Virus record (IMG/VR): IMGVR_UViG_3300046012_000211
Coordinates: 1-34,016 of that record
From: a virus
Direction: 5' to 3' (one strand)
Length of the DNA stretch: 34,016 bases
Of the stretch, positions 3,896-34,016 are shown piece by piece. Each line of letters opens with the position of its first letter. The stretch's first letter is position 1. The position numbers and the translations under genes are program-made. The notes below the pieces were generated by a model that saw only the letters and a program-made list of their open reading frames with translations, did no database searches and was not told the DNA's origin.

Positions 3896-6174
3896 ACCCT
3901 GAAGACCTCGCTGGCGTTCCGCCGGCCCGCCTGCCCTTCCCCGTCACCCGTGCCGAGGCGCGACCGATCACGACCCGGGCGTCGGAGGGGATGCCGACGA
4001 TGGTCGGCCGCTTCTCGACCTTTGGCGACTGGTACGAGGTGGATTCGCTGATCGAGGGCCACTTCCTCGAATCGGTCGGCACCCGCGCATTCGAGAAGAC
4101 GATCAGCGAGAGCCGCGCCTCGATGAAGGTCCTCTACGACCACGGCCACGACCCGCAGATCGGCAACAAGATCCTCGGGCCGATCGAGGAGCTCGGGACG
4201 GACGCGGGCTACGTCGTCCCGCTGTTCGACACGAGCTATAACCGCGATCTCGCCCCGGGCCTCATCGCTGGCGTGTACGGCTCGTCCTTCCGCTTCACCG
4301 TCGAGAAGGACGTCTGGGACTACACCCCGGCGCGCTCCGCGCACAACCCCGACGGCCTGCCCGAGCGGACGATCACCGAGGCCCGCGTCTACGAGTTCGG
4401 CCCGGTGACGTTCCCGGCCAACCCCGCGGCCACGGCGGGGATCCGCTCCACCACCGACAACTTCTACCAGCGCAGCCGCGACCCCGAGGCATTCGAGTCG
4501 CTCCTGCGCTCCGCCCAAGTCGCCCGCACTCCGGCCCCGGCCGGAGCCGCAGCCCGGTCCGATGAGCCGCCGGCGAGCACTCCGAGTGAGCCGCTCGAAC
4601 CGGACACTCCGCGGCCACCCGACCCACCGCCGGCCATGCCGGCCCCCACCGAAGACCCGCTGAGAAGCGGGTCTCTTGATTCTCAGGAGAACCGAACCGT
4701 GGACTACATCACCCGCGACGAGAAGACGGCGCGCATCGACGAGCTCAAGGCCGAGCAGAGTCGGACCGGCGTCGAGTACCCGGGCGTCATGCCGCCCGAT
4801 GTCCAGGCCCGCTGGGACGCGGCCGTCAAGGAGCAGGACGACCTCGAGCGCGACGTCGCCGCATGGGACGCCCGCCAGGCCCGGATCGCGGCCAACGCCG
4901 CGAACGCCCAGCTCCGCGAGACCGCCCCGTACAGCCCGCCGGTCGTCAACCAGATCAACCGCAAGGGCCAGTCCGACATCTACGACATCGGCGGCCTCCG
5001 CAGCGGATCGCGCAGCGACGAGGAGTACCGCTCAGGGCTCCGCGACAACGCGATGCGCTCGGTCGAGACGAGCCGGTTCCCGAACCCGAACATCACCCAG
5101 GACGCGGCCCGCGAGCAGGCGGCCCACCTCCTTGACTTCAAGGACTCGCCCGACAAGGAGATGGCGACCCGCTTCCTCCAGACCGGCAACCCGGCCTACC
5201 GGAGCGCGTTCGAGGCGCTCGTCGCGGGCCGTCACCTGTCCCCCGAGCAGGAGCGCGCCGCGGCCCTCGCGGTCGTCGGCACGACCACGACCGGCGGCTA
5301 CGCGGTCCCGTACATCTTCGACCCGACGATCATCCACACCGGCGCCTACACGAACATCAACCCGTTCCGGCAGATCTGCCGGGTCGAGACGATCGTTGGC
5401 GGCAACGTCTGGCGCGGCGTGAGCGCCGGTGCCATCGCGGCCCAGTACCGGGCTGAGGGTGACGCCATGACCGAGGGCGGCCCGACGTTCGCCCTGCCGA
5501 CCTACACCGCCCAGCGGGCGGACGCCTTCGTGACGCTGTCACGCGAGGCCCTTCAGGACCGGCCCGACTTCGTGTCCGAGCTGTCGTCGATCATCGACGA
5601 GGGCAAGGCCACCAACGAGGAGACCCAGTTCTCCATCGGCGTCGGCACGACCGTCTTCCCCTCGGGCATGTTCGTCAAGGGCAAGTTCACGGTCAAGGAG
5701 ACGATCACCGACAACACGTTCGCGGTCGCCGACCTCGACGCGACCGAGGCGGCCCTGCCGCTCCGCTTCCGTCGGGACGCGGTCTGGATGCTCGCCCGTG
5801 GCGTCATCCGGATCGTCCAGGGCTTCGAGACGGCCTACGGCAAGTACTTCAACTCCACCCTCGGCTACCCGGCCGTCGGCGATCCGGCCAACAACCCGGG
5901 CGGCAACACCGGGCTGAGCCTCCTCGGCTATCCCGTCTGGGAGACGCCCTCGGCTCCGGTCACGGTGACCGGCGACGACACGGTCGTCGGCATCCTCGTC
6001 GCCCCCAAGAACTACATCATCGTCGACCGAGCCGGCATGGAGGTGGAGATCATCCCCAACATGTTCGACGCGACGACGGGCTTCCCCACCGGCCAGCGCG
6101 GCCTCGCCGCCATCTGGCGCAACACCGCCGGCCCGCTCAATGCGGACGCCGGTCGCCAGATCAACATCAACTAA
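3892..6174 (+). CDS. Prohead protease-major capsid protein fusion (HK97 type)
   Basis: One uninterrupted 760-residue frame holds two normally separate proteins. Residues about 20-190 are an HK97-type prohead serine protease: VLYDHGHDPQIG supplies the likely catalytic His (about 84) and GVYGSSFRF the Ser (about 131-132). A Pro/Ala/Glu-rich linker (about 210-265) follows. The capsid part begins near DYITRDEKTARIDELKAEQ (delta-domain-like coiled coil) and continues through TTTTGGYAVP (about 463) into the HK97 capsid fold. No stop separates the parts, but a hairpin, an SD and a GTG lie at the junction, so a separate capsid product may also be made. Protease-capsid fusions are known in HK97-like phages. 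Confidence 0.93.
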   Translation: MNPEDLAGVPPARLPFPVTRAEARPITTRASEGMPTMVGRFSTFGDWYEVDSLIEGHFLESVGTRAFEKTISESRASMKVLYDHGHDPQIGNKILGPIEELGTDAGYVVPLFDTSYNRDLAPGLIAGVYGSSFRFTVEKDVWDYTPARSAHNPDGLPERTITEARVYEFGPVTFPANPAATAGIRSTTDNFYQRSRDPEAFESLLRSAQVARTPAPAGAAARSDEPPASTPSEPLEPDTPRPPDPPPAMPAPTEDPLRSGSLDSQENRTVDYITRDEKTARIDELKAEQSRTGVEYPGVMPPDVQARWDAAVKEQDDLERDVAAWDARQARIAANAANAQLRETAPYSPPVVNQINRKGQSDIYDIGGLRSGSRSDEEYRSGLRDNAMRSVETSRFPNPNITQDAAREQAAHLLDFKDSPDKEMATRFLQTGNPAYRSAFEALVAGRHLSPEQERAAALAVVGTTTTGGYAVPYIFDPTIIHTGAYTNINPFRQICRVETIVGGNVWRGVSAGAIAAQYRAEGDAMTEGGPTFALPTYTAQRADAFVTLSREALQDRPDFVSELSSIIDEGKATNEETQFSIGVGTTVFPSGMFVKGKFTVKETITDNTFAVADLDATEAALPLRFRRDAVWMLARGVIRIVQGFETAYGKYFNSTLGYPAVGDPANNPGGNTGLSLLGYPVWETPSAPVTVTGDDTVVGILVAPKNYIIVDRAGMEVEIIPNMFDATTGFPTGQRGLAAIWRNTAGPLNADAGRQININ
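4654..4673 (+). promoter_or_regulatory. GNRA-loop hairpin at the protease/capsid junction
   Basis: GACCCGCT pairs perfectly with AGCGGGTC around a GAGA tetraloop, an 8-bp stem with a GNRA loop. It is followed by a pyrimidine-rich TCTTGATTCTC and then AGGAGA and GTG 4699. This is the layout expected between two cistrons, yet the reading frame runs through it without a stop. It could be a translational spacer, an RNA stability element or a weak attenuator setting the fusion:capsid ratio. Confidence 0.6.
4699..6174 (+). CDS. Possible internally initiated major capsid protein
   Basis: GTG 4699 lies in the same frame as the fusion and is preceded by AGGAGA at 4685-4690 with an 8-base gap, an ideal Shine-Dalgarno arrangement in the middle of an open frame. 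Starting here gives a 491-residue protein with an N-terminal delta-like coiled coil (RDEKTARIDELKAEQ; DLERDVAAWDARQARIAANA) and the complete HK97 capsid fold. Capsid is needed in hundreds of copies and protease in far fewer, so separate production would make sense. Whether it is used cannot be decided from sequence; the full fusion could instead be cleaved by its own protease. Confidence 0.5.
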   Translation: MDYITRDEKTARIDELKAEQSRTGVEYPGVMPPDVQARWDAAVKEQDDLERDVAAWDARQARIAANAANAQLRETAPYSPPVVNQINRKGQSDIYDIGGLRSGSRSDEEYRSGLRDNAMRSVETSRFPNPNITQDAAREQAAHLLDFKDSPDKEMATRFLQTGNPAYRSAFEALVAGRHLSPEQERAAALAVVGTTTTGGYAVPYIFDPTIIHTGAYTNINPFRQICRVETIVGGNVWRGVSAGAIAAQYRAEGDAMTEGGPTFALPTYTAQRADAFVTLSREALQDRPDFVSELSSIIDEGKATNEETQFSIGVGTTVFPSGMFVKGKFTVKETITDNTFAVADLDATEAALPLRFRRDAVWMLARGVIRIVQGFETAYGKYFNSTLGYPAVGDPANNPGGNTGLSLLGYPVWETPSAPVTVTGDDTVVGILVAPKNYIIVDRAGMEVEIIPNMFDATTGFPTGQRGLAAIWRNTAGPLNADAGRQININ

Positions 6175-6187
6175 TCCCCCTCTCCCC

Positions 6188-6224
6188 AAGCCCCGGCCGG
6201 CGCCCCCTTCCGGCCGGGGCTTCT
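6188..6224 (+). terminator. Intrinsic-type terminator after the capsid gene
   Basis: AAGCCCCGGCCGG (6188-6200) pairs perfectly with CCGGCCGGGGCTT (6210-6222) around a 9-base loop, 13 bp in all. It is followed by a short pyrimidine run rather than a clean T tract. It begins 13 bases after the capsid stop. Terminators or processing hairpins directly after capsid genes are common and raise capsid mRNA abundance over downstream genes. Confidence 0.75.
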
Positions 6225-6256
6225 TCGTCCATCCCGCTAGTCAAGGAGAGCCCAAC

Positions 6257-6511
6257 GTGGCAACCGTTAGCGCGCTTCAGTCGTTCGTCGGCCGTCTGTC
6301 GAAGGACACCAAGGAACCCGATACCAAGCTCGACGGCAAGGTCGTCGCGGGCCGGGTCACCCCCGGCAAGTCGGTCCAGGTCCGGCAGGGCCAGAACTTC
6401 GAGGACAACCACCCGGTCGTCAAGGCGTTCCCCTCGATGTTCGGCGCCGTCGACAGCCTTCACCCGGTCGAGCAGGCGACCGCGGCGCCCGGCGAGAAGC
6501 GAGGCCGCTAG
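6257..6511 (+). CDS. Small conserved-position protein after capsid, function unknown
   Basis: The 84-residue protein starts at GTG 6257, 7 bases after AAGGAGA (6243-6249). It opens VATVSALQSFVGRLSKDTKE and contains VVAGRVTPGKSVQVRQGQNFEDNHPVV, ending in a basic EKRGR. It is hydrophilic with no membrane segment. The position right after the capsid and its hairpin suggests a head-associated or DNA-end-associated protein, but no family was recognised. The next gene's ATG follows its TAG with no gap. Confidence 0.8.
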   Translation: MATVSALQSFVGRLSKDTKEPDTKLDGKVVAGRVTPGKSVQVRQGQNFEDNHPVVKAFPSMFGAVDSLHPVEQATAAPGEKRGR

Positions 6512-7105
6512 ATGAACAAGTCGACCAACATCGCCGCGACGACGGCCGCGGTTCCGAACCGGATCGTTGCCTCGGCCAACATGAAGGTCGGCACGTACAC
6601 GATCGCGAACGCCAGCCCAGTGTGGGCCGGTGGCGCGCTCATCACCGTGACCCACACCCAGGTCGGCGGCGTCACCGACACGCTCGGCACGATCACCGTG
6701 GTCGGGACCGACCTGTTCGGCGTCGCCCTGACCGAGACGATCACGCCGCTCGACGGCACGATCGCCACGGGGACCAAGGTCTTCCGCTCGGTGACCAGCG
6801 TCACGGGCGCGGGCTGGGTCATCAACACCGGCAACGACACGATCGTCGTCGGCGTCACCGCGGGCTCGTACGCCGCGATCGGCGGCGGGCACCTCCACGC
6901 GATCGCCGTCAACACGACCGCGGCCGCCGCGATCACCGTGTCCGACGCGGGCGGGACGATCGCGACGCTGAAGGCGTCGATCGCCGAGGGCGTCTACGTC
7001 TTCGACGTGCCGTGGTCGGGCTTCCTCAAGATCGCCACGACCTCGACCAACGACGTGACCGCGATCCACAGCCCCGGCGTCCCGTCCACCTACGCGATGG
7101 CCTGA
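6512..7105 (+). CDS. Beta-rich phage structural protein, probable head decoration
   Basis: The 197-residue protein is Thr/Val/Gly-rich with short alternating beta patterns such as DTLGTITVVGTDLFGVALTE, ITPLDGTIATGTKVFRSVTS and GNDTIVVGVTAGSYAA. It has no signal peptide or membrane helix. Similar patterns occur in head or tail decoration proteins of siphoviruses. The location between capsid and connector genes suggests an external head protein; that role is inferred from context. Its stop shares a base with the next start (TGATG at 7103-7107). Confidence 0.75.
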   Translation: MNKSTNIAATTAAVPNRIVASANMKVGTYTIANASPVWAGGALITVTHTQVGGVTDTLGTITVVGTDLFGVALTETITPLDGTIATGTKVFRSVTSVTGAGWVINTGNDTIVVGVTAGSYAAIGGGHLHAIAVNTTAAAAITVSDAGGTIATLKASIAEGVYVFDVPWSGFLKIATTSTNDVTAIHSPGVPSTYAMA

Positions 7106-8088
7106 TGGCGTCACCCGTCCGCGGCCTCGCCCCGTTCATCGGCACATGGGACGCCAATACGTTCTACGACCGCGGTGACGTCGTGCTGCGCTCGGGCGTG
7201 CTCTACCAGGCGCGCTCCGACCGCGGTGACACGAAGGACCCGACCTCGGGCGCGGCCTACTGGGCCAATGTCTCGAGCACCATCCTGACCCTCACGGGCT
7301 CAATCGACCCCACCACGGGCGCGGGCATCCCGAGCGCGATCAGCTCGACCTACCACATGGCAGGCACCGCGCTGTACGTCAAGACCGGCTCGGGCGCGAC
7401 CGCGTGGAGCGATCCGGCAGCGGGTGGCGGCGGGGGAGGTAGCACCATCGCCGCCACCGATACCCAGATCGTGTTCATGGACGGGACCGATGCGGTCGGG
7501 AGCGCCAACCTCACCTTCGTCGAGGCCGGTGGCGACGTGACGCTCGGCCTCGCGGCGGGCGAGAACGACCACGCGACGATCAGCACGCTCGGAGTCGGGG
7601 CCGAAATCTCGATCCAGGCGGCAGATGGGGACGCGACCCACGTCGGCGGGGAGCTGACCCTCGTATCCGGCAACAGCGGCGGACAGAACGGCGGCCAGGT
7701 CAACATCTTCGCCGGCGCCGATACCGACGGCGGTGACGGTGGGGCCGTGATCGTCTCGTCCGGCAACGCCCCGTCGGGGAAAGCGGGCGACATCGACCTA
7801 CGGGTTGGCTCCCAAGGAGACAGCGCCGAAGGCGGCAGCATCAACATCGTCGCTGGGACGGGTCAGACCGACGACGGCGGCAGCGTCATCATCCAGGCTG
7901 GTCCGAACGTGACGGGCGGATCGCACGGCTCAGTCCAACTCTACGATGGAAGCTCGAATAACGGGCTCGAACTCAACGCGAACGGCCTGATCTACTTCGG
8001 TGCGGCTCCCGAGGTCCCTGCCACCCCCACGGCGCAGGACATCGTTGACGCCCTCGTCGCCATCGGCTTCATCACCCAAGCGTCGTGA
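7105..8088 (+). CDS. Glycine-rich structural protein with N-terminal CBM5/12-like segment
   Basis: The 327-residue product starts with a carbohydrate-binding-module-like segment (residues about 8-55: GTWDANTFYDRGDVVLRSG, then LYQARSD and AAYW) of the kind seen in chitin-binding type 5/12 modules and phage fibres. A poly-Gly hinge near residues 109-115 leads into repeated beta strands of the type GGELTLVSGNSGG, GGQVNIFAG, GGAVIVSSGN, GGSINIVAG, GGSVIIQAG, spaced about 20 residues apart, suggesting a stacked beta or fibre-like shaft. It may be a head fibre or surface-adhesion protein. It overlaps the next start by 4 bases (GTGA). Confidence 0.7.
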   Translation: MASPVRGLAPFIGTWDANTFYDRGDVVLRSGVLYQARSDRGDTKDPTSGAAYWANVSSTILTLTGSIDPTTGAGIPSAISSTYHMAGTALYVKTGSGATAWSDPAAGGGGGGSTIAATDTQIVFMDGTDAVGSANLTFVEAGGDVTLGLAAGENDHATISTLGVGAEISIQAADGDATHVGGELTLVSGNSGGQNGGQVNIFAGADTDGGDGGAVIVSSGNAPSGKAGDIDLRVGSQGDSAEGGSINIVAGTGQTDDGGSVIIQAGPNVTGGSHGSVQLYDGSSNNGLELNANGLIYFGAAPEVPATPTAQDIVDALVAIGFITQAS

Positions 8089-8405
8089 GGACCATCGGAG
8101 CGATCCTGCTCGTCCTCGCCCTCGCGTCTCCAGTAAGCGCAGCGAAGACGCAAGGCTCGTGCTCGGTCACGCCCAATTCGGTGCAAGCGAACGCCACCCT
8201 CACGATCACCGCCAGCGCGAGCGTCGGGTTCGACTTCTACCTGACCGATCCCACGGCGCAGACGTGGACGTGGCCGCAGGGACCCGCAGGAACCGTGTCC
8301 TACCAGTGGGCGACTCCGCTCACAGGGAACTGGACCGTCACCGTTCGCAATACCCACTACCCGCACCCACAGTCCATCGGCTCGTGCTCGTTCAAGGTGA
8401 CGTAG
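8085..8405 (+). CDS. Secreted small Ig-like protein
   Basis: The 106-residue product begins with a clear Sec signal peptide: MRTIGAILLVLALASPVSAA, with an AxA-like cleavage near residue 20. The mature part is a single beta-rich domain (NATLTITASASVGFDFYLTD; GTVSYQWATPLTGNWTVTVR) with two Cys near its ends (GSCSV and GSCSF) that could form a disulfide outside the cytoplasm. This resembles an Ig-like fold. A secreted protein between capsid and connector genes is odd, because virion proteins are not normally exported. It could act in the host envelope, for example in superinfection exclusion or adhesion. Confidence 0.75.
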   Translation: MRTIGAILLVLALASPVSAAKTQGSCSVTPNSVQANATLTITASASVGFDFYLTDPTAQTWTWPQGPAGTVSYQWATPLTGNWTVTVRNTHYPHPQSIGSCSFKVT

Positions 8406-8939
8406 ATGCTGACGGTCGATGAGTTCCGCCTCCTCGCCACGACCGAGCGGACCGACGCCGCCCTGACGATCCTCCTCGACGCCGCAGCCGAGGACATCGT
8501 CAACGCCATCGGCCCAGCCGGTGCGGTGACCGAGCTGATCGAGGCCGAGGGCGACCTCCTCCGCCTGGGTCGTCCGGCGCAGTCGATCATCTCGGTCGTC
8601 GAGTACGGCTTCGTCTCGGCCTCGGTCGGGACGACGCTGTCCGCCGACGACTACGAGCTGAGCAGCTCGGGCCAGACCCTCCGCCGACTGCGGACCGGGA
8701 CGAACCCGCGCTTCCGCTGGTTCCGCTCGGCCGTGACCTACGAGCCGGTCAGCGACGAATCCAACCGCCGGCGCGTCCAGTTGGAGCTCGTCCAGCTCGA
8801 CCTCTCCTACTCGCCCGGGATCAGCCAGGAGACGATCGGCTCGTACTCGGTGTCGCACGGCTCGAACGCGCAATGGAACTACCAGAAGGAGCGGGCCGCG
8901 ATCCTCGCCACGCTGACCTCGGGGATCGGTGTGGCGTGA
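8406..8939 (+). CDS. Head-tail connector protein (gp6-like)
   Basis: The 177-residue protein has the layout of HK97 gp6/SPP1 gp15 adaptors: an N-terminal helical region MLTVDEFRLLATTERTDAAL, LLDAAAEDIVNAIGP, then a hydrophobic beta region (LRLGRPAQSIISVVEYG) and a YQKERAAILATL helix at the C-terminus. Adaptors form a ring beneath the portal. Its ATG follows the previous TAG directly and its stop overlaps the next GTG by 4 bases. The connector order adaptor, stopper, gp10-like, terminator matches siphovirus convention. Confidence 0.8.
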   Translation: MLTVDEFRLLATTERTDAALTILLDAAAEDIVNAIGPAGAVTELIEAEGDLLRLGRPAQSIISVVEYGFVSASVGTTLSADDYELSSSGQTLRRLRTGTNPRFRWFRSAVTYEPVSDESNRRRVQLELVQLDLSYSPGISQETIGSYSVSHGSNAQWNYQKERAAILATLTSGIGVA

Positions 8940-9331
8940 GCTTCCGCGACCGGCTTATCCATACCCTGCTCATCACCCAGACCGACCCGGCCGCGTCCCC
9001 TGACGGCACGGGCCAGTTGTTCATCGACGAGACGGGCCAGCCGATCGGCGACACGACGAGCACCGCAGGGACCGAGATCGAGTGGCAGGGCGCCATCGAG
9101 GTCCCGGGGCTCGTCCAGGAGATGACCGCCAAGTGGCCCGAGGGTCCGGGCGCCGGACCGGAGCTCGTCGACACCCGCATCTACCTGTTGCCCGACGCGA
9201 GCATCCGCGAGCTGCGCAAGATCCGGCGGACCGACATCGAGCCGCAGCAGACCTACCAGGCGGTGTTCGTCATGGACGCCGGGGGGAAGGGCCACCACCT
9301 CGAGGTCCGCGCCCGGCGGATCCCGCTGTGA
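8936..9331 (+). CDS. Head closure/stopper-like protein
   Basis: The 131-residue protein starts with SFRDRLIHTLLITQTDP and is mainly beta strand (EIEWQGAIEVPGLVQEMTA, VDTRIYLLPDASIRELRKI, YQAVFVMDAGGKGHHLEV). Size, the RLIHTLLI start and the place between adaptor and gp10-like genes match head-closure (stopper) proteins, which seal the packaged head and join the tail. Sequence similarity in this group is low, so the call leans on synteny. Both ends show GTGA overlaps. Confidence 0.7.
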   Translation: MSFRDRLIHTLLITQTDPAASPDGTGQLFIDETGQPIGDTTSTAGTEIEWQGAIEVPGLVQEMTAKWPEGPGAGPELVDTRIYLLPDASIRELRKIRRTDIEPQQTYQAVFVMDAGGKGHHLEVRARRIPL

Positions 9332-9678
9332 GCGTGTTCGGACTGTCCGGCGTTCTCGCGGGGTTCAGCGCGAAGGTCGCCGAGATCGAAGCCGCCGAGC
9401 GCGAGGGCACCGAGGCCGGCGCGAACGTCATCGCGGAGGCGTGGCGGGCGGGCATCCAATCCGAGGGGCTCGTCGATACCGGGCGATACCTGGATTCAGT
9501 CACGGTCAACCGGGATGGCGATCACGTCACGGTCTCGTCCGATGTCCCGTACGGCCCGATCCTCGAGTTCGGCGACAGCCGACAGGCCGCTCATCCGGTC
9601 GCACACCAGGCATCCGAGGAGCGCGCCTCGGAAGTGTTCGACGTGATCGGTGAGCACGTCACGCGGGCGATCCGATGA
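9328..9678 (+). CDS. HK97 gp10-like tail completion protein
   Basis: The 116-residue product has an N-terminal helical stretch (FSAKVAEIEAAEREGTEAGA) and the family hallmark near residues 48-85: GLVDTGRYLDSVTV, then VSSDVPYGPILEFGDS, the strand-turn with YxxxxEFG characteristic of HK97 gp10-family proteins. It ends in a helix (ASEERASEVFDVIGEHV). Members act at the head-tail joint or tail end. GTGA and ATGA overlaps tie it to its neighbours. Confidence 0.85.
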   Translation: MSVFGLSGVLAGFSAKVAEIEAAEREGTEAGANVIAEAWRAGIQSEGLVDTGRYLDSVTVNRDGDHVTVSSDVPYGPILEFGDSRQAAHPVAHQASEERASEVFDVIGEHVTRAIR

Positions 9679-10106
9679 GTGATCCAGAGCTCATCCGGTC
9701 AGCGGTCATCGCGGATGCCACGTTGGAGGCGCTGATCGGCGACCGGATCTACCCGGTCGTCCTGCCGCCGACCATCAAGGACCCCGCCACTGGTGCGGTC
9801 CTGTTCCCGCTCATGCCCGCGATCACCTACCAGCTCTGGACGCAACCCACCGACGCGACCCAGACCGACGAGCAGTACCGCTACCCGCGATGGCGGTTCC
9901 GGATCTGGTCTCTGTCGTACGCCGACCTCACCCCGATCGCGGTCGGGCTCGCGGCCATCTTCGGGAACCGGACCCGGACGCCCTTCGCCAGATCGCACAT
10001 CGAGTACCCACAGAGCCAGGCCGAGGGCCACGAGACCGACACGCACCGCTACTGGCGCGCGCTCGATGTCGTGGCCTTCTCGTCAGCCGGCGCCGTCAGC
10101 CAGTAA
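9675..10106 (+). CDS. Tail terminator (DUF3168-like)
   Basis: The 143-residue protein matches the tail terminator pattern: DPELIRSAVIADATLEALIG at the start, DRIYPVVLPPT, FPLMPAITYQLWTQPTD, RWRFRIWSLSYADLTPIAVG, ending HRYWRALDVVAFSS. Such proteins cap the tail tube and set the tail-head interface. It is the last of four overlapped connector genes; a gap with a strong AAAGGAG site precedes the next gene. Confidence 0.83.
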   Translation: MSDPELIRSAVIADATLEALIGDRIYPVVLPPTIKDPATGAVLFPLMPAITYQLWTQPTDATQTDEQYRYPRWRFRIWSLSYADLTPIAVGLAAIFGNRTRTPFARSHIEYPQSQAEGHETDTHRYWRALDVVAFSSAGAVSQ

Positions 10107-10119
10107 AGGAGCACGACAA

Positions 10120-10746
10120 ATGGCCGCACGAGTCCTCATCGCAGCCCAGAGCGTGGTGGGCAGCTACCCCGTCACGCCGCTCACCGCCAACGCCGCCGAT
10201 CTCGTCGAGACCGCCGGCGACGCGACCAACGGTCACTACACCCCGATCGTCGAGGGCAAGACGGTCGTCATCGCCCACAACACGGGAGCCGGTGCGCGGA
10301 CGGTGACGTTCACCTCGTCGGTCGACACCTACAACCGCCTCGGCACGATCACCGCCTACTCGCTCGGAGCCGGTGAGATCAGCCTGCCGTTCGGGCCGTT
10401 CAAGGTGAACGGCTGGTCGAACGTCGGCCCCGACGTCGCCCTCGCCGACCCGTCGGCCGCGACCGACGACATCATCGACACGACCGGCGCCCACGGCTTC
10501 GCCGTCAACGACGTCGTCCGCTTCACGTCCCTGACCGGCGGCAGCGGGCTCGTCACCGACACCGACTACTACGTCGTGTCCACCTCGCTCGGGTCGACCA
10601 CCTTCCGCGTCGCGGCCAGCCGCTCCGGCGCGCCGCTGGGCTTCAGCACCGACATCACGGCGGGCACGGTCGTCAAGGTCTCGGACTACCTCTGGATCGA
10701 CGAGAGCCATGCCGAAGTGAAGATCGCCGTCATCACCCTGCCGTAG
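10120..10746 (+). CDS. Phage structural protein, tail-associated, function unknown
   Basis: The 208-residue protein starts 8 bases after AAAGGAG (10105-10111). The first half is beta-rich (GKTVVIAHNTGAGARTVTFT; ISLPFGPFKVNGWSNV). Residues about 120-190 contain HGFAVNDVVRFTSLTGGSG, TDYYVVSTSLGSTTFRVA and SGAPLGFSTDITAG, a recurring beta module in phage tail and fibre proteins. It sits directly before the tail tube, so a tail decoration or initiation role is plausible but unproven. Confidence 0.75.
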   Translation: MAARVLIAAQSVVGSYPVTPLTANAADLVETAGDATNGHYTPIVEGKTVVIAHNTGAGARTVTFTSSVDTYNRLGTITAYSLGAGEISLPFGPFKVNGWSNVGPDVALADPSAATDDIIDTTGAHGFAVNDVVRFTSLTGGSGLVTDTDYYVVSTSLGSTTFRVAASRSGAPLGFSTDITAGTVVKVSDYLWIDESHAEVKIAVITLP

Positions 10747-10771
10747 CGCCGGCTGAAAGGAACCAACGCAC

Positions 10772-11173
10772 ATGTCAAACGCTGTCGCCGGCCCCGGCTG
10801 GCTCCTCGCCCACAACGGGAACACGATCGAAGAGGTCATCGACATCTCGGGTCCGGAGCAGAAGGCCGAGAAGGACGACGTCACCAACCAGTCCTCGACG
10901 GGCTTCTACAAGGAATGGATCCCGACGCTGTTGGACGGCGGAGACGTTTCGTTCAACTGCAACTACATCCCGGGCTCGACGACCCAGCAGGGGCTCCTGA
11001 CCGCGATGCAGGCCCGGACGCTCGAGTCGTTCACCCTCACCCCGCCGAGCCCGTACGCCTCGGAGGTCATCAGCTTCTCTGCCTACTGCGTGGACTGGGA
11101 CATCAAGACCCCGCACTCGAAGAAGGCGACCCTCCAGATCAAGCTCGCCGTCACCGGCCCCGTCACCCTCTAG
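10772..11173 (+). CDS. Major tail tube protein
   Basis: The 133-residue product resembles siphovirus tail tube proteins: GWLLAHNGNTIEEVIDISGP, VTNQSSTGFYKEWIPTLLDG, DVSFNCNYIPGSTTQQGLL, then the hydrophobic core strand SEVISFSAYCVDWDIKTP and the terminal KKATLQIKLAVTGPVTL. The G-x-V-x-F-N-C-N-Y-x-P pattern with the DWD strand and terminal ITG/VTG is typical. It has its own SD (GAAAGGAA). The tail chaperone and tape measure follow after one small inserted gene. Confidence 0.85.
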   Translation: MSNAVAGPGWLLAHNGNTIEEVIDISGPEQKAEKDDVTNQSSTGFYKEWIPTLLDGGDVSFNCNYIPGSTTQQGLLTAMQARTLESFTLTPPSPYASEVISFSAYCVDWDIKTPHSKKATLQIKLAVTGPVTL

Positions 11174-11198
11174 CCGTTTGTACCAATAGCGGTGAGAC

Positions 11199-11414
11199 AT
11201 GGGCAATACGCCCCACCGCCCGCAGCGGTCCCTGCTCGTCTGGCGAGCTGGCGACAACTCGGGCGACACCCCGGCCACGATCCTGCTGGCCGTCATTGAG
11301 CGCCTGAAGACCGAGAACCGACTGGAGCCGGACCGTGAGATCAGCCTCGCGATCCAGCGCTGCCAGGAGGGTCTCCACTGGATTCGAGACGTAGAAGAGA
11401 AGAGGTCAAAATGA
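11199..11414 (+). CDS. Acb2/Tad1-like small protein, candidate anti-CBASS
   Basis: The 71-residue protein has a C-terminal helical region with DREISLAIQRCQEGLHW. This resembles the conserved helix of Acb2-type proteins (pattern R-E-x-S-L-A, then E-x-L-x-W), preceded by a helix (ATILLAVIERLKTEN) and a short acidic/Pro turn. Acb2 proteins are small helical multimers that bind cyclic nucleotides and block CBASS immunity. The gene sits between tail tube and tail chaperone where no structural protein is expected, has only a weak GGTGAGA site, and overlaps the next start by 4 bases. The assignment rests on short-motif resemblance and remains tentative. Confidence 0.5.
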   Translation: MGNTPHRPQRSLLVWRAGDNSGDTPATILLAVIERLKTENRLEPDREISLAIQRCQEGLHWIRDVEEKRSK

Positions 11415-11842
11415 CCAGCAAGCCGAAGATCCTGACCCGCGACGACATCCTCGCGAAGCGTGCGCCACGCACCGAACTTGAGCCGACCCCGGAGTGGGGC
11501 GGTGGCAGCGTCATCGTCAAGGCCATGACCGGGGCCGAGCGCGGCGAGTTCGAGATGAGCTCGATGCGGATCATCCCCGGCGCTCCGGGCGAAGCCCCGA
11601 CGACGCAGATCGTCCACCCCGAGCTCGCCCGCGTGCGCCTCGTGTCGATGACAGCGGTTGACGAATCCGGCGCCCGCCTCTTCACCGAGGCCGACCTTGT
11701 CGCGCTCGGCGAGCTCGACGCGGCTCCGCTCGATCGGATCGCTGACCGAGCCCGCCGCCTGTCCGGCCTGACGAAGAAGGACATGGAGGCGTTGACCACC
11801 GGCCTAAAAGCCGACCCGAACGGTTCCTCTGGTTCCGACTGA
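11411..11842 (+). CDS. Tail assembly chaperone, short form (gpG-like)
   Basis: The 143-residue protein has the usual chaperone plan: TRDDILAKRAPRTELEPTPE, a central beta part GGGSVIVKAMTGAERGEFEM, VRLVSMTAVDESGARLFTE and a C-terminal helical segment RIADRARRLSGLTKKDMEAL. It coats the tape measure during tail assembly. As in lambda G/GT, the upstream frame ends soon after a slip-prone stretch (ctaaaag, 11804-11810) and a conserved extension lies in the -1 frame. It starts at an ATGA overlap with the small 11199 gene. Confidence 0.85.
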   Translation: MTSKPKILTRDDILAKRAPRTELEPTPEWGGGSVIVKAMTGAERGEFEMSSMRIIPGAPGEAPTTQIVHPELARVRLVSMTAVDESGARLFTEADLVALGELDAAPLDRIADRARRLSGLTKKDMEALTTGLKADPNGSSGSD

Positions 11843-12039
11843 CCCGTGAGCTCGGTCACCCGTCCGTCGCAGCCTGCCAAGAAGCGGTGAACTCCGCCGA
11901 GTTCTCCGAGTGGATCGCGTTCTGGACCGTCGAGGCCGAGCACCAGCAGCCCGCGGCTGAGCGTCCGCCGACACCGGACGAGCTGACCGCGAAGATCCAC
12001 GCCACGTTCTCCCGGTTCAAGCGTCGCCCGAAGGACTGA
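11804..12039 (+). CDS. Tail assembly chaperone extension (gpT-like) made by -1 frameshift
   Basis: In the -1 frame relative to the 11411 gene, an open stretch ends at TGA 12037-12039 with no credible start of its own. Its reading PERFLWFRLTRELGHPSVAA, then FSEWIAFWTVEAE and a C-terminal basic FSRFKRRPKD, closely resembles the T-part of siphovirus GT chaperones. The likely slip is at cta-aaa-gcc (11804-11812): AAA can re-pair with AAA in -1, while the CTA codon pairs poorly, so a single-tRNA slip on A-AAA-G is more likely than a canonical heptamer. The fusion would be about 210 residues. The tape measure ATG follows 4 bases after the stop. Confidence 0.82.
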
Positions 12040-21593: not shown

Positions 21594-22352
21594 TTGACCG
21601 AAGGACTGACGCGGGACGCCGCGCACCGCTACTACCTCGACGGCGCCGGCCCGATGCCGTCCGTCACGACCGTCACGAAGACGCTCTCGACCGGCGACGC
21701 GCTCGTTGGCTGGGCGAAGCGGGAGACGGCGGCCTGCGCGATCCGCAACCTCGACGTCCTCTCGACGATGGTCAAGGACGGCGGGCCGGCCAGCGCGCAG
21801 TCCTGGCTCCAGTCCATCCCGGACTTCCAGCGGGACACCGCCGCCGACCTCGGCTCGCGGGTCCACGCGCTAGCCGAGGCAACGGTCCGCGGCGAGGACG
21901 TCGAGCTCACCGCTGACGAGACGCCGTTCGTGGAGTCGTACCGGGCCTGGCTCGCGGAGATCCGGCCCGAGTTCATCGTCCTCGAGGAGATGGTCTGCTC
22001 GACGACCCACGGCTACGCGGGAACCCTCGACGCGATCGCCTGGATCGACGGCGAGCGATGGCTCTTGGATATCAAGACCGGGAAGGCGTGCTACCCGGAG
22101 ATGGGGATGCAGCTCGTCGCCTACGCCCGCGCCGACTTCATCGGCCGGGCCGCCGATCCGATCCGCTACACCATCCCGGCCGTCACGAGGTTCGGCGTCA
22201 TCCATGTCCGGCCCGATCGGAGCCGACTGGTCGAGTACACGTCGGTCGATGACTACTGGTCGATGTTCCTGTCGTGCCTCGAGCTCTATCGGCGCAAGGG
22301 CGGACTGAGCGCGGGCATGGGCGAGTGGCGCCGATCGGCGGCGGCGGCATGA
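21594..22352 (+). CDS. PD-(D/E)XK exonuclease (RecB/Cas4-like)
   Basis: The 252-residue protein starts at TTG 21594, 2 bases after an extended AGAGGAGAGG. The nuclease core is clear: Glu in IVLEEMVCSTTHGYAG, Asp146 in GTLDAIAWID, the D-I-K pair (Asp159, Lys161) in WLLDIKTGK and Gln173 in EMGMQLVAYA, the RecB-family motif III/QxxxY layout. The N-terminal YYLDGAGPMPSVTTVTKTL is typical of phage versions. It probably resects DNA ends for recombination or replication restart, with the endonuclease VII and HNH genes downstream. Confidence 0.88.
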   Translation: MTEGLTRDAAHRYYLDGAGPMPSVTTVTKTLSTGDALVGWAKRETAACAIRNLDVLSTMVKDGGPASAQSWLQSIPDFQRDTAADLGSRVHALAEATVRGEDVELTADETPFVESYRAWLAEIRPEFIVLEEMVCSTTHGYAGTLDAIAWIDGERWLLDIKTGKACYPEMGMQLVAYARADFIGRAADPIRYTIPAVTRFGVIHVRPDRSRLVEYTSVDDYWSMFLSCLELYRRKGGLSAGMGEWRRSAAAA

Positions 22353-26243: not shown

Positions 26244-26545
26244 GCCGCAAGCAAACGCTCATCGAGGAACTGCGCGACTGGACGACGCGCTCCGAGCCGT
26301 GGACCGGACCGGCGACATGGACCGGCGAGGACGGCTACAACGCCGCCATCGAGGAGGTCGCCGGGATGCTGAACTATCACCGCGACGAGGAGGACTCGGA
26401 GGAAGAGGCGCGGCGGTTGCTCGGCTACCTCTGGACAGCGACCGGCAAGAACCATCTCCGCCCCGTCAGTGACCTGTTCGCCGAAGACGACCCCATCGTC
26501 GCGGACGTGGAACGGCTCGCCATCTTCGCGGTTCCCGTTCGATGA
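26240..26545 (+). CDS. Acidic helical accessory protein, function unknown
   Basis: The 101-residue protein (GTG start overlapping the previous stop) reads SRKQTLIEELRDWTTRSEPW, NAAIEEVAGMLNYHRDEEDS, EEEARRLLGYLWTATGKNHL, FAEDDPIVADVERLAIFAVP. It is acidic and predicted helical, without membrane segments or metal-binding residues. The negative charge recalls DNA-mimic style proteins, but nothing specific supports that. It ends at an ATGA overlap with the next gene. Confidence 0.65.
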   Translation: MSRKQTLIEELRDWTTRSEPWTGPATWTGEDGYNAAIEEVAGMLNYHRDEEDSEEEARRLLGYLWTATGKNHLRPVSDLFAEDDPIVADVERLAIFAVPVR

Positions 26546-26958
26546 CCACTCCCGAGACACCGAGCGAGCTGACGGGGGAAGGGCTGCGAGAGCCCGACGT
26601 GCGTCGGTTGGCTGCTGCGATGCGAGCGGTCGATGTCGTCGAGAAGCGTCCCGTGGACAAGTACGTTGGGCTCGCCTCGGAGATCGTCGCGGCCATCCTC
26701 GCCGCCCTTCCCAACCGAGAGGCTGCCCCGGAAGGGCTCCGAGAGACGCTGGCCGACTACTTCAAGGCGACCGACGACATTCGCGACGCGGGCGAGGCCC
26801 GTCTCGGCGACCCGCACCTGATCGCCGCGATGTACCGCGATGCTGGTGACCGGAAGCGCAAGGCCGAGGCCGTTCTCCGCGCCGCTCTCGCCACCCCTCC
26901 CGGTGATCCCGACGAGGCGCGCAACCGCGAGCACGACGAGGAGGGCAACCATGTCTGA
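26542..26958 (+). CDS. Modular accessory protein with shared linkers (copy 1)
   Basis: The 138-residue protein consists of an ETPSE start block, a helical module (EPDVRRLAAAMRAVDVVEKR, VGLASEIVAAIL), the linker ALPNREAAPEGL, a second module (ETLADYFKATDDIRDAGEAR, AAMYRDAGDRKRKAEAVLRA), the linker ALATPPGDP and an acidic tail. The three linker blocks recur at nucleotide level in the next gene, while the modules do not resemble each other. No catalytic motif is visible. Its last 8 bases overlap the next gene. Function unknown. Confidence 0.72.
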   Translation: MTTPETPSELTGEGLREPDVRRLAAAMRAVDVVEKRPVDKYVGLASEIVAAILAALPNREAAPEGLRETLADYFKATDDIRDAGEARLGDPHLIAAMYRDAGDRKRKAEAVLRAALATPPGDPDEARNREHDEEGNHV

Positions 26959-27429
26959 GACACCGAGCGAGCGTGATCCCGAGCGAGTCGAACGGTTCCG
27001 GGCGGTGGTCGAGCGCACGATCCACGCTCAGACGTGTCGCGCTCAGGCCCACAAGCCGGGTACGCAGACGCAGTGTCGGTTCCCGACCGCCGAAGCCGAG
27101 CGCTTCCTCGACGAGGCGGAAGCCGCCCTTCCCAACCGAGAGGCTGCCCCAGAAGGGCTGAACGACGCCTATCGCGAACGGAACGCCGTCGTCGCGGCGC
27201 TCATCCGAACGAACGGCTGGCCCTGTTGGCTCGCCGACGCTCCCGACGCGGCCGGCTGGGTCATCGTGTACGCCGAGACGCCGCGCGGTCAGGTGTCATG
27301 GCACGTCGGGCCGGACGACTTCGACCTGTTCGACGGCTTCGGCACCGTCGCGCCGGTCGGCTGGGACGGCCACACGACCGAGGAGAAGTACGGGCGGCTC
27401 GCCGCTCTCGCCACCCCTCCCGGTGATCC
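26554..27429 (+). repeat. Three pairs of direct DNA repeats shared by two adjacent genes
   Basis: Pair S: 26554-26569 and 26957-26972, 16 of 16 bases identical (gene start). Pair M: 26701-26738 and 27122-27159, 37 of 38 identical (ALPNREAAPEGL linker). Pair E: 26881-26909 and 27401-27429, 29 of 29 identical (LATPPGDP linker). The order S-M-E is kept while the sequences between them are unrelated. Confidence 0.93.
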
Positions 27430-27448
27430 AGTAACGAAGGAAGGCTAA
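26951..27448 (+). CDS. Modular accessory protein with shared linkers (copy 2)
   Basis: The 165-residue protein repeats the plan of its neighbour: SETPSE start, a module with Cys pairs (HAQTCRAQAHKPGTQTQCRF), the linker ALPNREAAPEGL, then a second module AYRERNAVVAALIRTNGWPC, WLADAPDAAGWVIVYAETPR, GQVSWHVGPDDFDLFDGF, and GWDGHTTEEKYGRLA, closing with ALATPPGDP. The second module resembles a widespread small phage protein with a GQVSWH...WDGHTTEEKY signature, function unknown. The linkers are nearly identical in DNA to those of 26542-26958. Confidence 0.75.
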   Translation: MSETPSERDPERVERFRAVVERTIHAQTCRAQAHKPGTQTQCRFPTAEAERFLDEAEAALPNREAAPEGLNDAYRERNAVVAALIRTNGWPCWLADAPDAAGWVIVYAETPRGQVSWHVGPDDFDLFDGFGTVAPVGWDGHTTEEKYGRLAALATPPGDPVTKEG

Positions 27449-27451
27449 GCG

Positions 27452-27820
27452 ATGACGAAGGAAGCCGCGCCTGCGGTCGCGGAGGCTACGCCCCGGCCGT
27501 GGTTCTGGGACAGCTACTCGCGCATCTACGGGAGCCCGGCCGTAATGGTGGACGGCGACCCGGCGTACCCGCAAGTCGTCCCGTTGCCGAACCCGACGCG
27601 CGGCGACGTGACAACCCGGCAGGGCGGGGCGGACGCGCGCCTCATCGTCGCGGCGGTCAATGACTATGACCGCCTCCGCCGCATCGAAGCGGCGGCCCGT
27701 CTGACCCGCAACGTCCGTTTCCTCGGAGACGACCTCCCGGCGTTCGTCGGCGAATGGGTCGCGGTCCCGGCCGAGGACTTCGATCGACTTCGTGCCGCCC
27801 GTTCCGAGGTCTCCTCCTAA
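27452..27820 (+). CDS. Accessory protein with EAAP-type leader, function unknown
   Basis: The 122-residue protein starts with a leader TKEAAPAVAEATPRPW, related in style to the EAAP linkers upstream. The body, WFWDSYSRIYGSPAVMVDGD, GGADARLIVAAVNDYDRLRR, matches a common small phage protein in which ADARLIVAAVN-x-[Y/H] recurs; its function is unknown. The C-terminus has EWVAVPAEDFDRLRAARSEV. A GAAGGAAGG-type SD overlaps the previous stop. Confidence 0.7.
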   Translation: MTKEAAPAVAEATPRPWFWDSYSRIYGSPAVMVDGDPAYPQVVPLPNPTRGDVTTRQGGADARLIVAAVNDYDRLRRIEAAARLTRNVRFLGDDLPAFVGEWVAVPAEDFDRLRAARSEVSS

Positions 27821-27825
27821 CGCTC

Positions 27826-28176
27826 ATGGGGGACCTACTGAGTTCCAACGAGGAGGCCGCGCCAAGCGCGGAGGCTGCGCCGCGCCGGATCCAACGTCAA
27901 CGGACGAAGGGCTGGCGCATGCCGCCCGGCGCGGTGTACGTCGGGCGACCGACCCGTTGGGGCAATCGCTGGCCGGTGGGTCGCAGCGTCTGGCGCGTCG
28001 ATGGCCGGGTCACGCGGTACAACCTCAGCGCCGACGCATCGGTCCTGATCTACCGCGCGTGGGTGAAGCGCGAGGGCATCGACGTCTCGCCCCTTCGCGG
28101 CCGCGACCTCGCGTGCTGGTGCCCGTTGGACGAGCCGTGTCACGCCGACGTCCTCTTGGAACTGGCGAACGCTTGA
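27826..28176 (+). CDS. DUF4326 protein with MGDLLS tag
   Basis: The 116-residue protein begins MGDLLSSNEEAAPSAEAAPR, a tag plus EAAP linker, then the DUF4326 domain: GWRMPPGAVYVGRPTRWGNR, VLIYRAWVKREGIDVSPLRG, RDLACWCPLDEPCHADVLLE, with conserved R-P-[T/S]-x-W-G-N and C-W-C-x4-x-P-C-H. DUF4326 is common in phages and its biochemical role is unknown. The first 17 bases are almost identical to the start of the excisionase gene at 28179. Confidence 0.85.
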   Translation: MGDLLSSNEEAAPSAEAAPRRIQRQRTKGWRMPPGAVYVGRPTRWGNRWPVGRSVWRVDGRVTRYNLSADASVLIYRAWVKREGIDVSPLRGRDLACWCPLDEPCHADVLLELANA

Positions 28177-30229: not shown

Positions 30230-30494
30230 CCGATGCTGCTGCTATCCCTACTGCTGTCCAGCCCGACGACTCATGCACGAACGGCGGATGAACCGTGCGT
30301 GACTGTGTGAATGGACGTATTCCTCCCAGTGGCTCGGAGCCACCCCGCCGGGACGGCGGATCATGCTCGGTTTCAGCGCGATTGGGCACCGATGGATGAT
30401 GCTCGGCGCGACTCCACTGCCGTCTCTACTGCTGTCCGGGTTTCAGCTCCGGGCCTCTCGATGACTCCTTGGCGTGGTAGATGAGGACGTTGAC
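30230..30494. other. Gene-poor structured stretch downstream of the integrase block
   Basis: No convincing gene is visible. Three hairpins occur: GCACG...CGTGC (30275-30298), GTGGCT-CGG-AGCCAC (30329-30343) and CCGCC...GGCGG (30345-30359). Short direct repeats are CTACTGCTGTCC (30248-30259 and 30426-30437), ATGCTCGG (30363-30370 and 30399-30406) and GGTTTCAGC (30369-30377 and 30439-30447). It may be an attachment site, a small RNA or a promoter region. Open frames here (30233-30310 and 30311-30484) have weak support. Confidence 0.5.
30233..30310 (+). CDS. Possible 25-residue signal-like peptide
   Basis: ATG 30233 lies 3 bases after the preceding stop and opens MLLLSLLLSSPTTHA, a short hydrophobic signal-like segment ending in a THA motif, then RTADEPCVTV with a single Cys. 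No SD is visible, but termination-reinitiation from the upstream gene is possible. It could be a tiny exported peptide or chance. Confidence 0.25.
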   Translation: MLLLSLLLSSPTTHARTADEPCVTV

Positions 30495-30719
30495 GTGACC
30501 TACGATGAAGCCGCGACTGAGGTCACGGAGGCTGCGCCCCTCGATGTGGAACGGCTGGCGCGAGCGATGCATTTGGCGCGGCGGCTTACCGGCATGCAGG
30601 AGCCGTACTGCGATAATCCGCTGACCGACACCGACCTCCGCGCGCACATGGAGTGGGCCGAAGCGATCCTCCACGCCTACACGATGCTGCCACCGTACAC
30701 GCGGCTGCCCGATGGGTGA
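30495..30719 (+). CDS. Small accessory protein with EAAP linker
   Basis: GTG 30495 lies 7 bases after GAGGA and is preferred over GTG 30474, which lacks an SD. The 74-residue product reads TYDEAATEVTEAAPLDVERL, ARAMHLARRLTGMQEPYCDN, ENPLTD-like TDTDLRAHMEWAEAILHAYT. The TEAAP linker followed by D-V-E-R-L-A-R-A-M is like the EPDVRRLAAAM module of the 26542 gene. It overlaps the methyltransferase start by 8 bases. Function unknown. Confidence 0.65.
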   Translation: MTYDEAATEVTEAAPLDVERLARAMHLARRLTGMQEPYCDNPLTDTDLRAHMEWAEAILHAYTMLPPYTRLPDG

Positions 30720-31375: not shown

Positions 31376-31993
31376 ATGACTGATCGTCCAACAGTCGCAC
31401 CACCTGGTACACCGCCACAGGACAATGACGCGATGAGCGACCTGATGACCCGTTCGCAGCGGCCCGACTTTCACGCGACCCTTGAGGCGCACGGCGTCCG
31501 GTGGCGCTTCAACTTCCTCGCGGGCGTTCCGTCGGAGGACGGCGATCTGCCTGATTACCGGGCCGAACCGAAGTGGTCCGAGAAAGACCTGACCCCCGAG
31601 CAGCGCGCCGAGCTCGAGGGCTGGATCGCCGATCATCGCGCCGCCCGTCCGCAGGACGATCCGCAGATGGCTCGGTGGGGGACGATGGAGCACAACGGCG
31701 TCGAGTGCTCGCACCTCCATGGTCGCAAGCCGGTCATCGAGAAGGTGCCGAGCGCCGGGTTCGAGTGCCTGACGTGCCGCGCGATGATCGTGCCGAAGGC
31801 CCGGCCCGAGACGTTCCGGTTCGTGGGCGGCCCGCTCGATGGCTACCACCTCGCGACGAACGGCACGCACTCATGGCGCGTGCCGGACCCGCAGCCGGTC
31901 TCCATCGCGGCGTATGCGAACGACGACGAGCCGGCCCTGTCGATGCCGTTCATCGAGTACGAGCGACGCGGGAACGTCTACGTCCTCCGATGA
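31376..31993 (+). CDS. Accessory protein with MTDRPTVAPPGTP tag and Cys motif
   Basis: The 205-residue product starts with the tag MTDRPTVAPPGTP, shared with the next gene. The body has FHATLEAHGVRWRFNFLAGV, WSEKDLTPEQRAELEGWIAD, a Cys/His region VECSHLHGRKPVIEK...GFECLTCRAMIV that could bind zinc, and RFVGGPLDGYHLATNGTHSW followed by FIEYERRGNVYVLR. The VGGPLDG and Y-[E/R]-[R/L] end resembles short phage proteins of unknown function. It begins 4 bases after the methyltransferase stop. Confidence 0.7.
   Translation: MTDRPTVAPPGTPPQDNDAMSDLMTRSQRPDFHATLEAHGVRWRFNFLAGVPSEDGDLPDYRAEPKWSEKDLTPEQRAELEGWIADHRAARPQDDPQMARWGTMEHNGVECSHLHGRKPVIEKVPSAGFECLTCRAMIVPKARPETFRFVGGPLDGYHLATNGTHSWRVPDPQPVSIAAYANDDEPALSMPFIEYERRGNVYVLR
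31388..31415 (+). repeat. 28-bp exact direct repeat, copy 1 (tag of the 31376 gene)
   Basis: The block encodes PTVAPPGTP and is identical in all 28 bases to 32002-32029, 614 bp away. Its codons (CCA, ACA, GCA, CCT, GGT, ACA) are unlike the G/C-ending codons of surrounding genes, so conservation is at DNA level. Confidence 0.95.
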
Positions 31994-32376
31994 CCGACAG
32001 ACCAACAGTCGCACCACCTGGTACACCGCTGACACCGAGGGAGCTGGCGTGGATCAAGGCGTTCGTCGCGGAGGGCGAGCGCGCGAAGGCCGCCGCCAAG
32101 TTCGTTGACATGGGCGAGGAGGGCTGCGACGTGTGCCGACAAGCGCGGCTTCCGCGAGTCGTTCAAGGATCGGGGCCGCGCGTGACCGAAGCCACGTCTC
32201 GCCAGCTCGAGGCGTGGGAGGCATACGTCGCCACGGGCGGAATGAAGGCCGCCGCCGACCGGCTCGGCATCCATGAGATCACCGTCCGCAAGCGGATCGC
32301 CGAGCTCCGCGACGTGTACGACGTGCGAACGAACGTTCAACTCGCCATCGCGATCGAACGGGCACGCGCCGCCTAA
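31990..32376 (+). CDS. LuxR-type helix-turn-helix regulator with shared tag
   Basis: The 128-residue protein begins with the same MTDRPTVAPPGTP tag and has a LuxR/GerE-like C-terminal domain: TSRQLEAWEAYVATGGMKAA, ADRLGIHEITVRKRIAELRD, VYDVRTNVQLAIAIERARA, with helix-turn-helix at about residues 83-105 and the typical D-V-x-T-N-x-V-Q-L-A close. The middle holds CDVCRQARLP, with one CxxC. There is no sensor domain. It probably regulates nearby phage genes. It is the last gene before a 55-base gap. Confidence 0.8.
   Translation: MTDRPTVAPPGTPLTPRELAWIKAFVAEGERAKAAAKFVDMGEEGCDVCRQARLPRVVQGSGPRVTEATSRQLEAWEAYVATGGMKAAADRLGIHEITVRKRIAELRDVYDVRTNVQLAIAIERARAA
32002..32029 (+). repeat. 28-bp exact direct repeat, copy 2 (tag of the LuxR-type gene)
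   Basis: Identical to 31388-31415. Upstream of it the two start regions still match at protein level (MTDR) but use different codons (CGT versus AGA for Arg), so the exact match begins at codon 5. Confidence 0.95.
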
Positions 32377-33148: not shown

Positions 33149-34016
33149 GTGAAGCGGCTCGGCGTCTACGTCGGCGTGGCCGCGCTGATCCTCGCCGGCG
33201 CCTCATCGTCGACCCCCACGCGGTACGACCGTCAGCAGGACGCCCGGATCGCCGCGCTCGAGTCGGCGCTTGCCGCACGGACTCCGACGCCAAACGCTAC
33301 GCCGACCGCGACCCCAACGCCGACACCGACGCCTACGCCGACGGCGACGCCCGCCCCGACGGCGACGCCGACCCCGACACCGACGCCGACCCCGACACCG
33401 ACGCCGAACCCCGGGACGGTCCTCTCACCGGGCGCGGATCTCGCCACCGCCCTGAATGCCTTGCCCGAAGGCGGAACGCTGACCCTTCACGGCGGGACGT
33501 ACACCGTGCCGTCGATCATCACGACGGCCAAGGCGTTCACGCTCCAGGCGTACCCCGGCGAGACGCCCGTCCTCACGAGCTCCGGGCGCCCGGACTTCCT
33601 GTACCTCCGCGGCGGCCCGAACGTCATCACGGGCATCACGTTCAAGGCGGGCGGCGGGACGTACGACGACAGCATGGGATCGGCCCTGCTCGAAGTCGAG
33701 GTCGGGGGCCACGACGTGACCGTCGAGGGCTGCACCTTCCTCGGCCACTCGCTCATGGCGAGCCGCCAGCAACTCTTCTACGTCGCCTCGGCCACGGGTT
33801 CGATCACGATCCGCAACAGCGTCCTCGACGGCGGTCAGATGCGCGGCGCCGGCGTCCACATGTACCACGACCCCGGACCGGCGGGCGTCACCGTGACGGG
33901 CAACACCGTGCGCAACTTCTCGTACGAGGCGGGGATCCTCGTCGATCAGCTCGCGTCGAACGTGCTCGTCGAGTCGAACGTCATCACGAACACGAGCATC
34001 GCGATTGCCTACTGGA
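33149..34016 (+). CDS. Secreted right-handed beta-helix protein with Thr-Pro linker (3' partial)
   Basis: From GTG 33149 the frame stays open to the end of the window (289 codons). It begins with a signal-like segment MKRLGVYVGVAALILAGASS, a short coiled coil DARIAALESALAA, and a Thr-Pro/Ala linker of about 45 residues (33280-33412). Then come parallel beta-helix repeats: GGTLTLHGGTYTVPSIITTA, LRGGPNVITGITFKAGGG, VGGHDVTVEGCTFLGHSLMA, GSITIRNSVLDGG, GVTVTGNTVRNFSYEAGILV, NVLVESNVITNTSIAIAYW. This is a pectate-lyase-like fold, either a glycan-acting enzyme or a cell-surface protein. Thr-Pro linkers of this kind are common in Chloroflexota secreted proteins. Confidence 0.8.
   Translation, partial: MKRLGVYVGVAALILAGASSSTPTRYDRQQDARIAALESALAARTPTPNATPTATPTPTPTPTPTATPAPTATPTPTPTPTPTPTPNPGTVLSPGADLATALNALPEGGTLTLHGGTYTVPSIITTAKAFTLQAYPGETPVLTSSGRPDFLYLRGGPNVITGITFKAGGGTYDDSMGSALLEVEVGGHDVTVEGCTFLGHSLMASRQQLFYVASATGSITIRNSVLDGGQMRGAGVHMYHDPGPAGVTVTGNTVRNFSYEAGILVDQLASNVLVESNVITNTSIAIAYW

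Follow-up and report, generated by a model that had tools for sequence, protein, structure and literature searches.

An established model explains phage mosaicism by homologous exchange at short boundary sequences (PMC3029335; PMC3233612). In the mycobacteriophage LRRHood, 29-bp direct repeats, one of them at the 3' end of a gene, flank an acquired segment of 1.35 kb (PMC3029335). At the protein level, phage domain mosaicism, in which otherwise unrelated proteins share recently exchanged fragments, is well documented (Smug et al., 2023; PMC10684548). Cluster K mycobacteriophages, finally, carry start-associated sequences (SAS), a fixed-consensus motif found near start codons (PMC12699233).

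The locus considered here belongs to a viral record of 34,016 bases (IMG/VR IMGVR_UViG_3300046012_000211), the whole of which was analyzed and is referred to below as the window. Genes for a terminase, a capsid and a tape measure protein, as found in phages, are present in it. Two consecutive small plus-strand genes near its right end overlap by 8 bases and share three short blocks, designated A, B and C:

26542..26958, plus strand: gene 1, an ORFan of 138 amino acids, comprising tag A, module 1, linker B, module 2, linker C and a charged tail
26951..27448, plus strand: gene 2, 165 amino acids with its ATG at 26951, comprising tag A, module 1', linker B, a WDGH domain, linker C and a short tail
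26554..26569, plus strand: block A (ETPSE), copy 1, 16/16 bases with 26957-26972
26957..26972, plus strand: block A (ETPSE), copy 2, 16/16 bases with 26554-26569
26701..26738, plus strand: block B (AALPNREAAPEGL), copy 1, 37/38 bases with 27122-27159, separating module 1 from module 2 in gene 1
27122..27159, plus strand: block B (AALPNREAAPEGL), copy 2, residues 58-70 of gene 2, ending where the WDGH domain starts
26880..26909, plus strand: block C (AALATPPGDP), copy 1, 30/30 bases with 27400-27429
27400..27429, plus strand: block C (AALATPPGDP), copy 2, covering the final helix turn of the WDGH domain and the C-terminal tail
27158..27409, plus strand: WDGH domain (PF25311), about residues 70-153 of gene 2

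That two adjacent genes share three blocks of near-identical DNA in the same order had been proposed from a sequence-only reading of this DNA, and it is fully borne out, block C being extended to 30/30 from the 29/29 given earlier. The blocks encode 5, 13 and 10 amino acids, respectively, and follow the order A, B, C in both genes. Over the 30 bases that flank blocks B and C, identity drops to 23-47%. The spacings between the copies of A, B and C (403, 421 and 520 bases) and the frame offset of the two genes (409 bases) are all 1 modulo 3; every block is therefore read in the same codon phase in both genes. The copies of block B differ by one synonymous change, with a second synonymous difference in the codon at the end of the block, and those of block C show no difference across 30 bases. 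Of all non-tandem exact repeats in the 34-kb window, blocks B and C supply the two longest; in first-order Markov shuffles the longest exact repeat measured 15-21 bases. Their in-frame match scores (35.5 for B, 30 for C) lie far above the maximum of 18 reached when the codons of the arm's genes were shuffled (40 trials). Block A, with an in-frame score of 16, is by itself not significant against this maximum; it adjoins both start codons, and it exceeds the 95% family-wise level of 13.8 in a test of all pairs of the first 75 bases of the genes (codon-shuffle maximum of 16.5 in 200 shuffles). An assembly artefact is an unlikely source of the gene pair because a natural 8-base overlap joins the two genes and because the blocks are shorter than the usual assembly words.

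Further short sequences are shared between genes of the same arm, all of them at N-termini:

27461..27494, plus strand: EAAP N-terminal tag of the gene at 27452, 30/34 bases with 30507-30540, score 24
30507..30540, plus strand: EAAP N-terminal tag of the gene at 30495, 30/34 bases with 27461-27494
27853..27885, plus strand: EAAP-like N-terminal tag of the DUF4326 gene at 27826, of borderline similarity (13.3-13.6)
31376..31415, plus strand: N-terminal tag MTDRPTVAPPGTP of the gene at 31376, 36/40 bases with 31990-32029, score 30
31990..32029, plus strand: N-terminal tag MTDRPTVAPPGTP of the next gene, which encodes a different protein (possibly helix-turn-helix), 36/40 bases with 31376-31415

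Both the 31376/31990 and the 27452/30495 pairs surpass every codon shuffle in the N-terminal test. The former encodes the identical peptide MTDRPTVAPPGTP in both genes, with four synonymous differences confined to the first four codons and then 28 exact bases, while all four differences in the EAAP pair are non-synonymous. The relatedness previously suggested for the EAAP-type linkers consequently holds for the genes at 27452 and 30495; for the gene at 27826 it is only borderline when measured against 13.8. The MGDLLS starts of the genes at 27826 and 28179 score 14.5, slightly over the 95% level. In frame and counted by eye, 12/15 bases agree between the end of gene 2 (VTKEG) and the beginning of the gene that follows (MTKEA), within 27431-27468, as though the joint had duplicated a few codons. 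In an apparently non-coding gap downstream of the integrase gene, CTGCTATCCCTACTGCTGTCC repeats match at 18/21 bases (30239-30259 and 30417-30437) and are possibly part of an attachment site. A tandem array at 33281-33430 codes for a Thr-Pro-rich stretch of a protein that runs past the end of the window; this family and the one at 13409/13541 in the tape measure gene are unrelated to the linkers and were set aside.

The second module of gene 2 matches Pfam PF25311 with 40.2 bits (cut-off 27) over residues 71-151, and the WDGHTTEEK motif at residues 138-146 is invariant in an alignment of 62 sequences, placing gene 2 in the WDGH family. A scan of IMG/VR returned 80 kept loci with WDGH relatives (89 confirmed) at 29-56% identity; most of these matches cover gene 2 from about residue 70 to about residue 153, starting immediately behind block B and ending at the first residues (AAL) of block C. 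Among plasmid matches, 5/5 start at residues 70-73 and 4/5 end at residues 152-154. In at least 80 other viral contigs, the WDGH domain stands alone or behind other extensions, without the linkers of blocks B and C. An AlphaFold2 model of gene 2, built from the 62 sequences, predicts two uncertain helices (residues 10-33 and 46-58), a low-pLDDT linker at 59-67 that corresponds to block B and lies between helices 46-58 and 68-88, and a confident WDGH core (68-154) followed by a coil tail, which is block C. A fold search of the PDB with this model gave no match below E 0.001, and a search of a viral structure library returned other WDGH proteins. In the predicted structure, the blocks thus fall at domain boundaries, with B in the inter-domain linker and C in the tail.

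We were unable to find homologues of gene 1 among viral contigs, phage isolates and GTDB genomes, and weak matches to two contigs (L048 and L016) look like chance. A single-sequence model of low confidence predicts an all-helical protein (helices 17-34, 44-55, 64-85 and 91-117) in which the helix breaks coincide with the same blocks. Neither a WDGH profile match nor any similarity to this domain was detected in module 2 of gene 1. Consistent with this, the second modules of the two genes share no detectable similarity (shuffle p 0.25), and they probably differ in origin, since a WDGH domain in gene 2 faces a predicted all-helical module without homologue in gene 1. The first modules likewise show no sequence similarity (shuffle p 0.68); as both are predicted to form two helices, with the same linker after them, they could be diverged homologues. 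The proposition that unrelated modules are joined by common linkers accordingly fits the second modules well, but it is less secure for the first modules given their similar helix layout.

Related phages with the same linker DNA and other modules between the linkers had been named as a check, and none came to light in IMG/VR, in GTDB or in 15 terminase-relative records. The exact DNA of blocks B and C had no match in IMG/VR, nor had that of block B in GTDB genomes, and no further copies of the blocks were present in the window or the collections. Degenerate LPNREAAP DNA gave five matches, taken as chance because all of them lie in short frames with no similarity around them. Terminase relatives with 60-81% identity (the 15 records, many of them fragments) contained no match to gene 1 or gene 2, and the integrase and the gene at 25019, used as synteny anchors, returned no relatives. 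With no second linker-bearing genome found, an alternative module between the linkers could consequently not be observed. Profiles of defence systems gave nothing relevant in the window.

Parallels in other phages were surveyed in about 1.5 Mb from 100 contigs, as in-frame coding blocks of at least 26 identical bases with unrelated flanks and without start-site overlap. Only a few of the 100 contigs contain such blocks, and for this reason the window stands out as unusually rich in a feature that is occasional in phage accessory arms. In contig L045, 29/29 bases coding for the C-terminal tail (YETTWKWFD; 1372-1400 and 1826-1854) are common to a WDGH gene and the gene directly upstream of it, and the common tail begins directly after the WDGH domain. 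Contig L053 contains an adjacent gene pair with blocks of 21 and 31 bases in the same order, separated by 45 and about 80 bases; a third gene has the second, 31-base block, and a fourth is a diverged copy. All four genes (within 5955-11287) have a C-terminal ERAxVVA...IERGEH domain or its end, and in the adjacent pair the two ends of this domain are identical in DNA while its middle differs in length and sequence. Because of the fourth, diverged gene, we assign these blocks to a paralogous C-terminal domain. The terminase relative G011 shows 44/45 identical bases at two places 3.7 kb apart, one of the frames being possibly spurious. Repeats in L034, L051, L063 and the Mycobacterium phage Purky (L195) cover the ribosome-binding site and start of neighbouring genes and are of a different, regulatory kind; in Purky, two adjacent small genes have 26 bases in common over these elements (11529-11554 and 11839-11864).

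Module swapping at linkers is the best explanation for the gene pair, and we hold with moderate confidence that gene 1 and gene 2 were recently put together as mosaics at short linkers common to both. Related phages would have carried a small accessory gene in two versions, alike in start tag and linkers but different in their modules; recombination at one common block would then have brought both versions into tandem, or the gene would have been duplicated and its modules replaced. A crossover inside a block would leave both products in frame and their domains whole, as the blocks stand in the same codon phase and encode an inter-domain linker or a flexible end. This history of allelic versions is the most economical one, requiring the fewest steps to account for the order, phase and identity of the blocks. 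We infer that the joints arose through homologous pairing at the blocks, that there are allelic versions and that exchange is still going on. The independence of the WDGH domain from the linkers and the recurrence of similar blocks in the arm and in unrelated phages (L045, L053) argue for such mosaics; several parallels in other phages are, on the other hand, single blocks or paralogous C-terminal domains, and these weigh against them, since local copying alone would suffice. Endonuclease VII is encoded by the same phage, together with an exonuclease that, judged from its sequence, may have a recombination function:

21594..22352, plus strand: phage exonuclease (phrog_298, E 2e-41)

Among the frames scanned, none was recognised as encoding a single-strand annealing protein. 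About 30 bp are required by Red-beta (PMC3945230), and a phage annealing protein, if present, would make the 30-38 bases of the longer blocks enough.

The sequence-only reading had further argued that protein selection by itself would not keep linkers so alike next to unrelated modules. The copies of the shared DNA are indeed too similar to date back as far as the modules; giving protein selection no part would nevertheless be too strong, as the differences in block B and in the 31376/31990 tag are synonymous. Hence, the blocks are recent copies, some of which are probably also constrained as peptides, and it is recency rather than an absence of protein selection to which we attribute their DNA identity. 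The idea of a cassette system also drew a mixed response from the data: the position of the blocks at domain boundaries, the occurrence of the WDGH domain elsewhere without linkers and the recurrence of blocks agree with it, but its central element, exchange via the linkers, met with no second linker genome. We consider it unlikely that the accessory arm is a live cassette system in which in-phase linkers at domain boundaries provide homology for continual swapping within and between genomes. If it were, new multi-domain small proteins would arise by in-frame recombination.

The main rival, which we regard as possible but doubtful, is local copying without module exchange, whereby short stretches from neighbouring genes would have been copied through template switching or microhomology-mediated repair, and useful starts, linkers and tails pasted singly onto other genes. 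Single blocks at gene starts or ends occur elsewhere in the arm (27452/30495, 31376/31990) as well as in L045, L034, L051, L063 and Purky, and the 12/15-base likeness between VTKEG and MTKEA at the gene 2 joint would be of the same making; this account has to accept two or three separate copying events that involved one and the same gene pair and agreed in order, phase and domain context. An old tandem duplication, after which the modules diverged while gene conversion and protein constraint preserved the likeness of the linkers, would account for the solely synonymous differences in B, C (none in 30 bases) and the 31376 tag and for the two predicted helices that precede the same linker in both genes. 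We nevertheless judge such concerted evolution to be quite improbable, as the second modules are an alpha/beta WDGH domain in gene 2 and a predicted all-helical module in gene 1 (p 0.25), and as conversion tracts of 30-38 bases between fully diverged flanks would be hard to sustain.

A functional DNA or RNA site kept by selection on nucleotides, be it a protein-binding site, a hairpin or an in-frame mobile palindrome, is a further alternative, and block B is able to form a GCCCTTCC/GGAAGGGC hairpin. Its folding z-scores are, however, only -1.1 to -1.8 (-0.9 to 0.3 for block C), and the single change in block B removes a pair. The blocks occur, moreover, only at protein domain boundaries and in one codon phase, with no further copies in the window or collections, so that we regard this last explanation as very improbable. 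In-frame palindromic elements of the Rickettsia type, which are strongly palindromic and occur in several genes, were likewise dismissed, there being a weak hairpin in block B only and none in C.

The preferred reading, recent mosaics joined at linkers, bears on an old dispute over why boundaries and joints coincide, in which targeted homologous exchange at boundary sequences is set against random joining followed by selection. It is uncommon for joints still to be near-identical in sequence, in phase and placed at domain boundaries, and such joints provide rather direct evidence for targeted exchange at the level of protein domains; they also indicate where live recombinants could be sought in reads. 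Like the short conserved boundary sequences, the locus presents short near-identical DNA at module joints as a possible target of homologous recombination; those sequences are intergenic and are found again in related genomes, whereas the blocks reported here lie inside reading frames at domain linkers and in one genome. LRRHood provides a similar picture in that a direct repeat of about 30 bases, with one copy at the 3' end of a gene, brackets foreign genes of unknown source; it has one repeat pair and a single-copy relative, while here two long pairs are interleaved with two coding modules and no relative was found. The proteins compared by Smug et al. (PMC10684548) share domains or aligned fragments of at least 50 amino acids; blocks of 5, 13 and 10 amino acids fall short of this length, and in our gene pair only these linkers of 5-13 amino acids are shared and the domains differ. 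With SAS, the arm has in common a short sequence repeated at several gene starts; SAS have a fixed consensus, in contrast to the N-terminal tags described here, which are coding and differ between gene pairs, and the motif GGGATAGGAGCCC, allowing up to 2 mismatches, gave 0 matches in the window. Less usual in this case is the position of the shared sequences, which are linkers within genes and occur twice between one pair of genes. Recombination at short shared sequences is known in phages, but at intragenic linkers it has seldom been seen.
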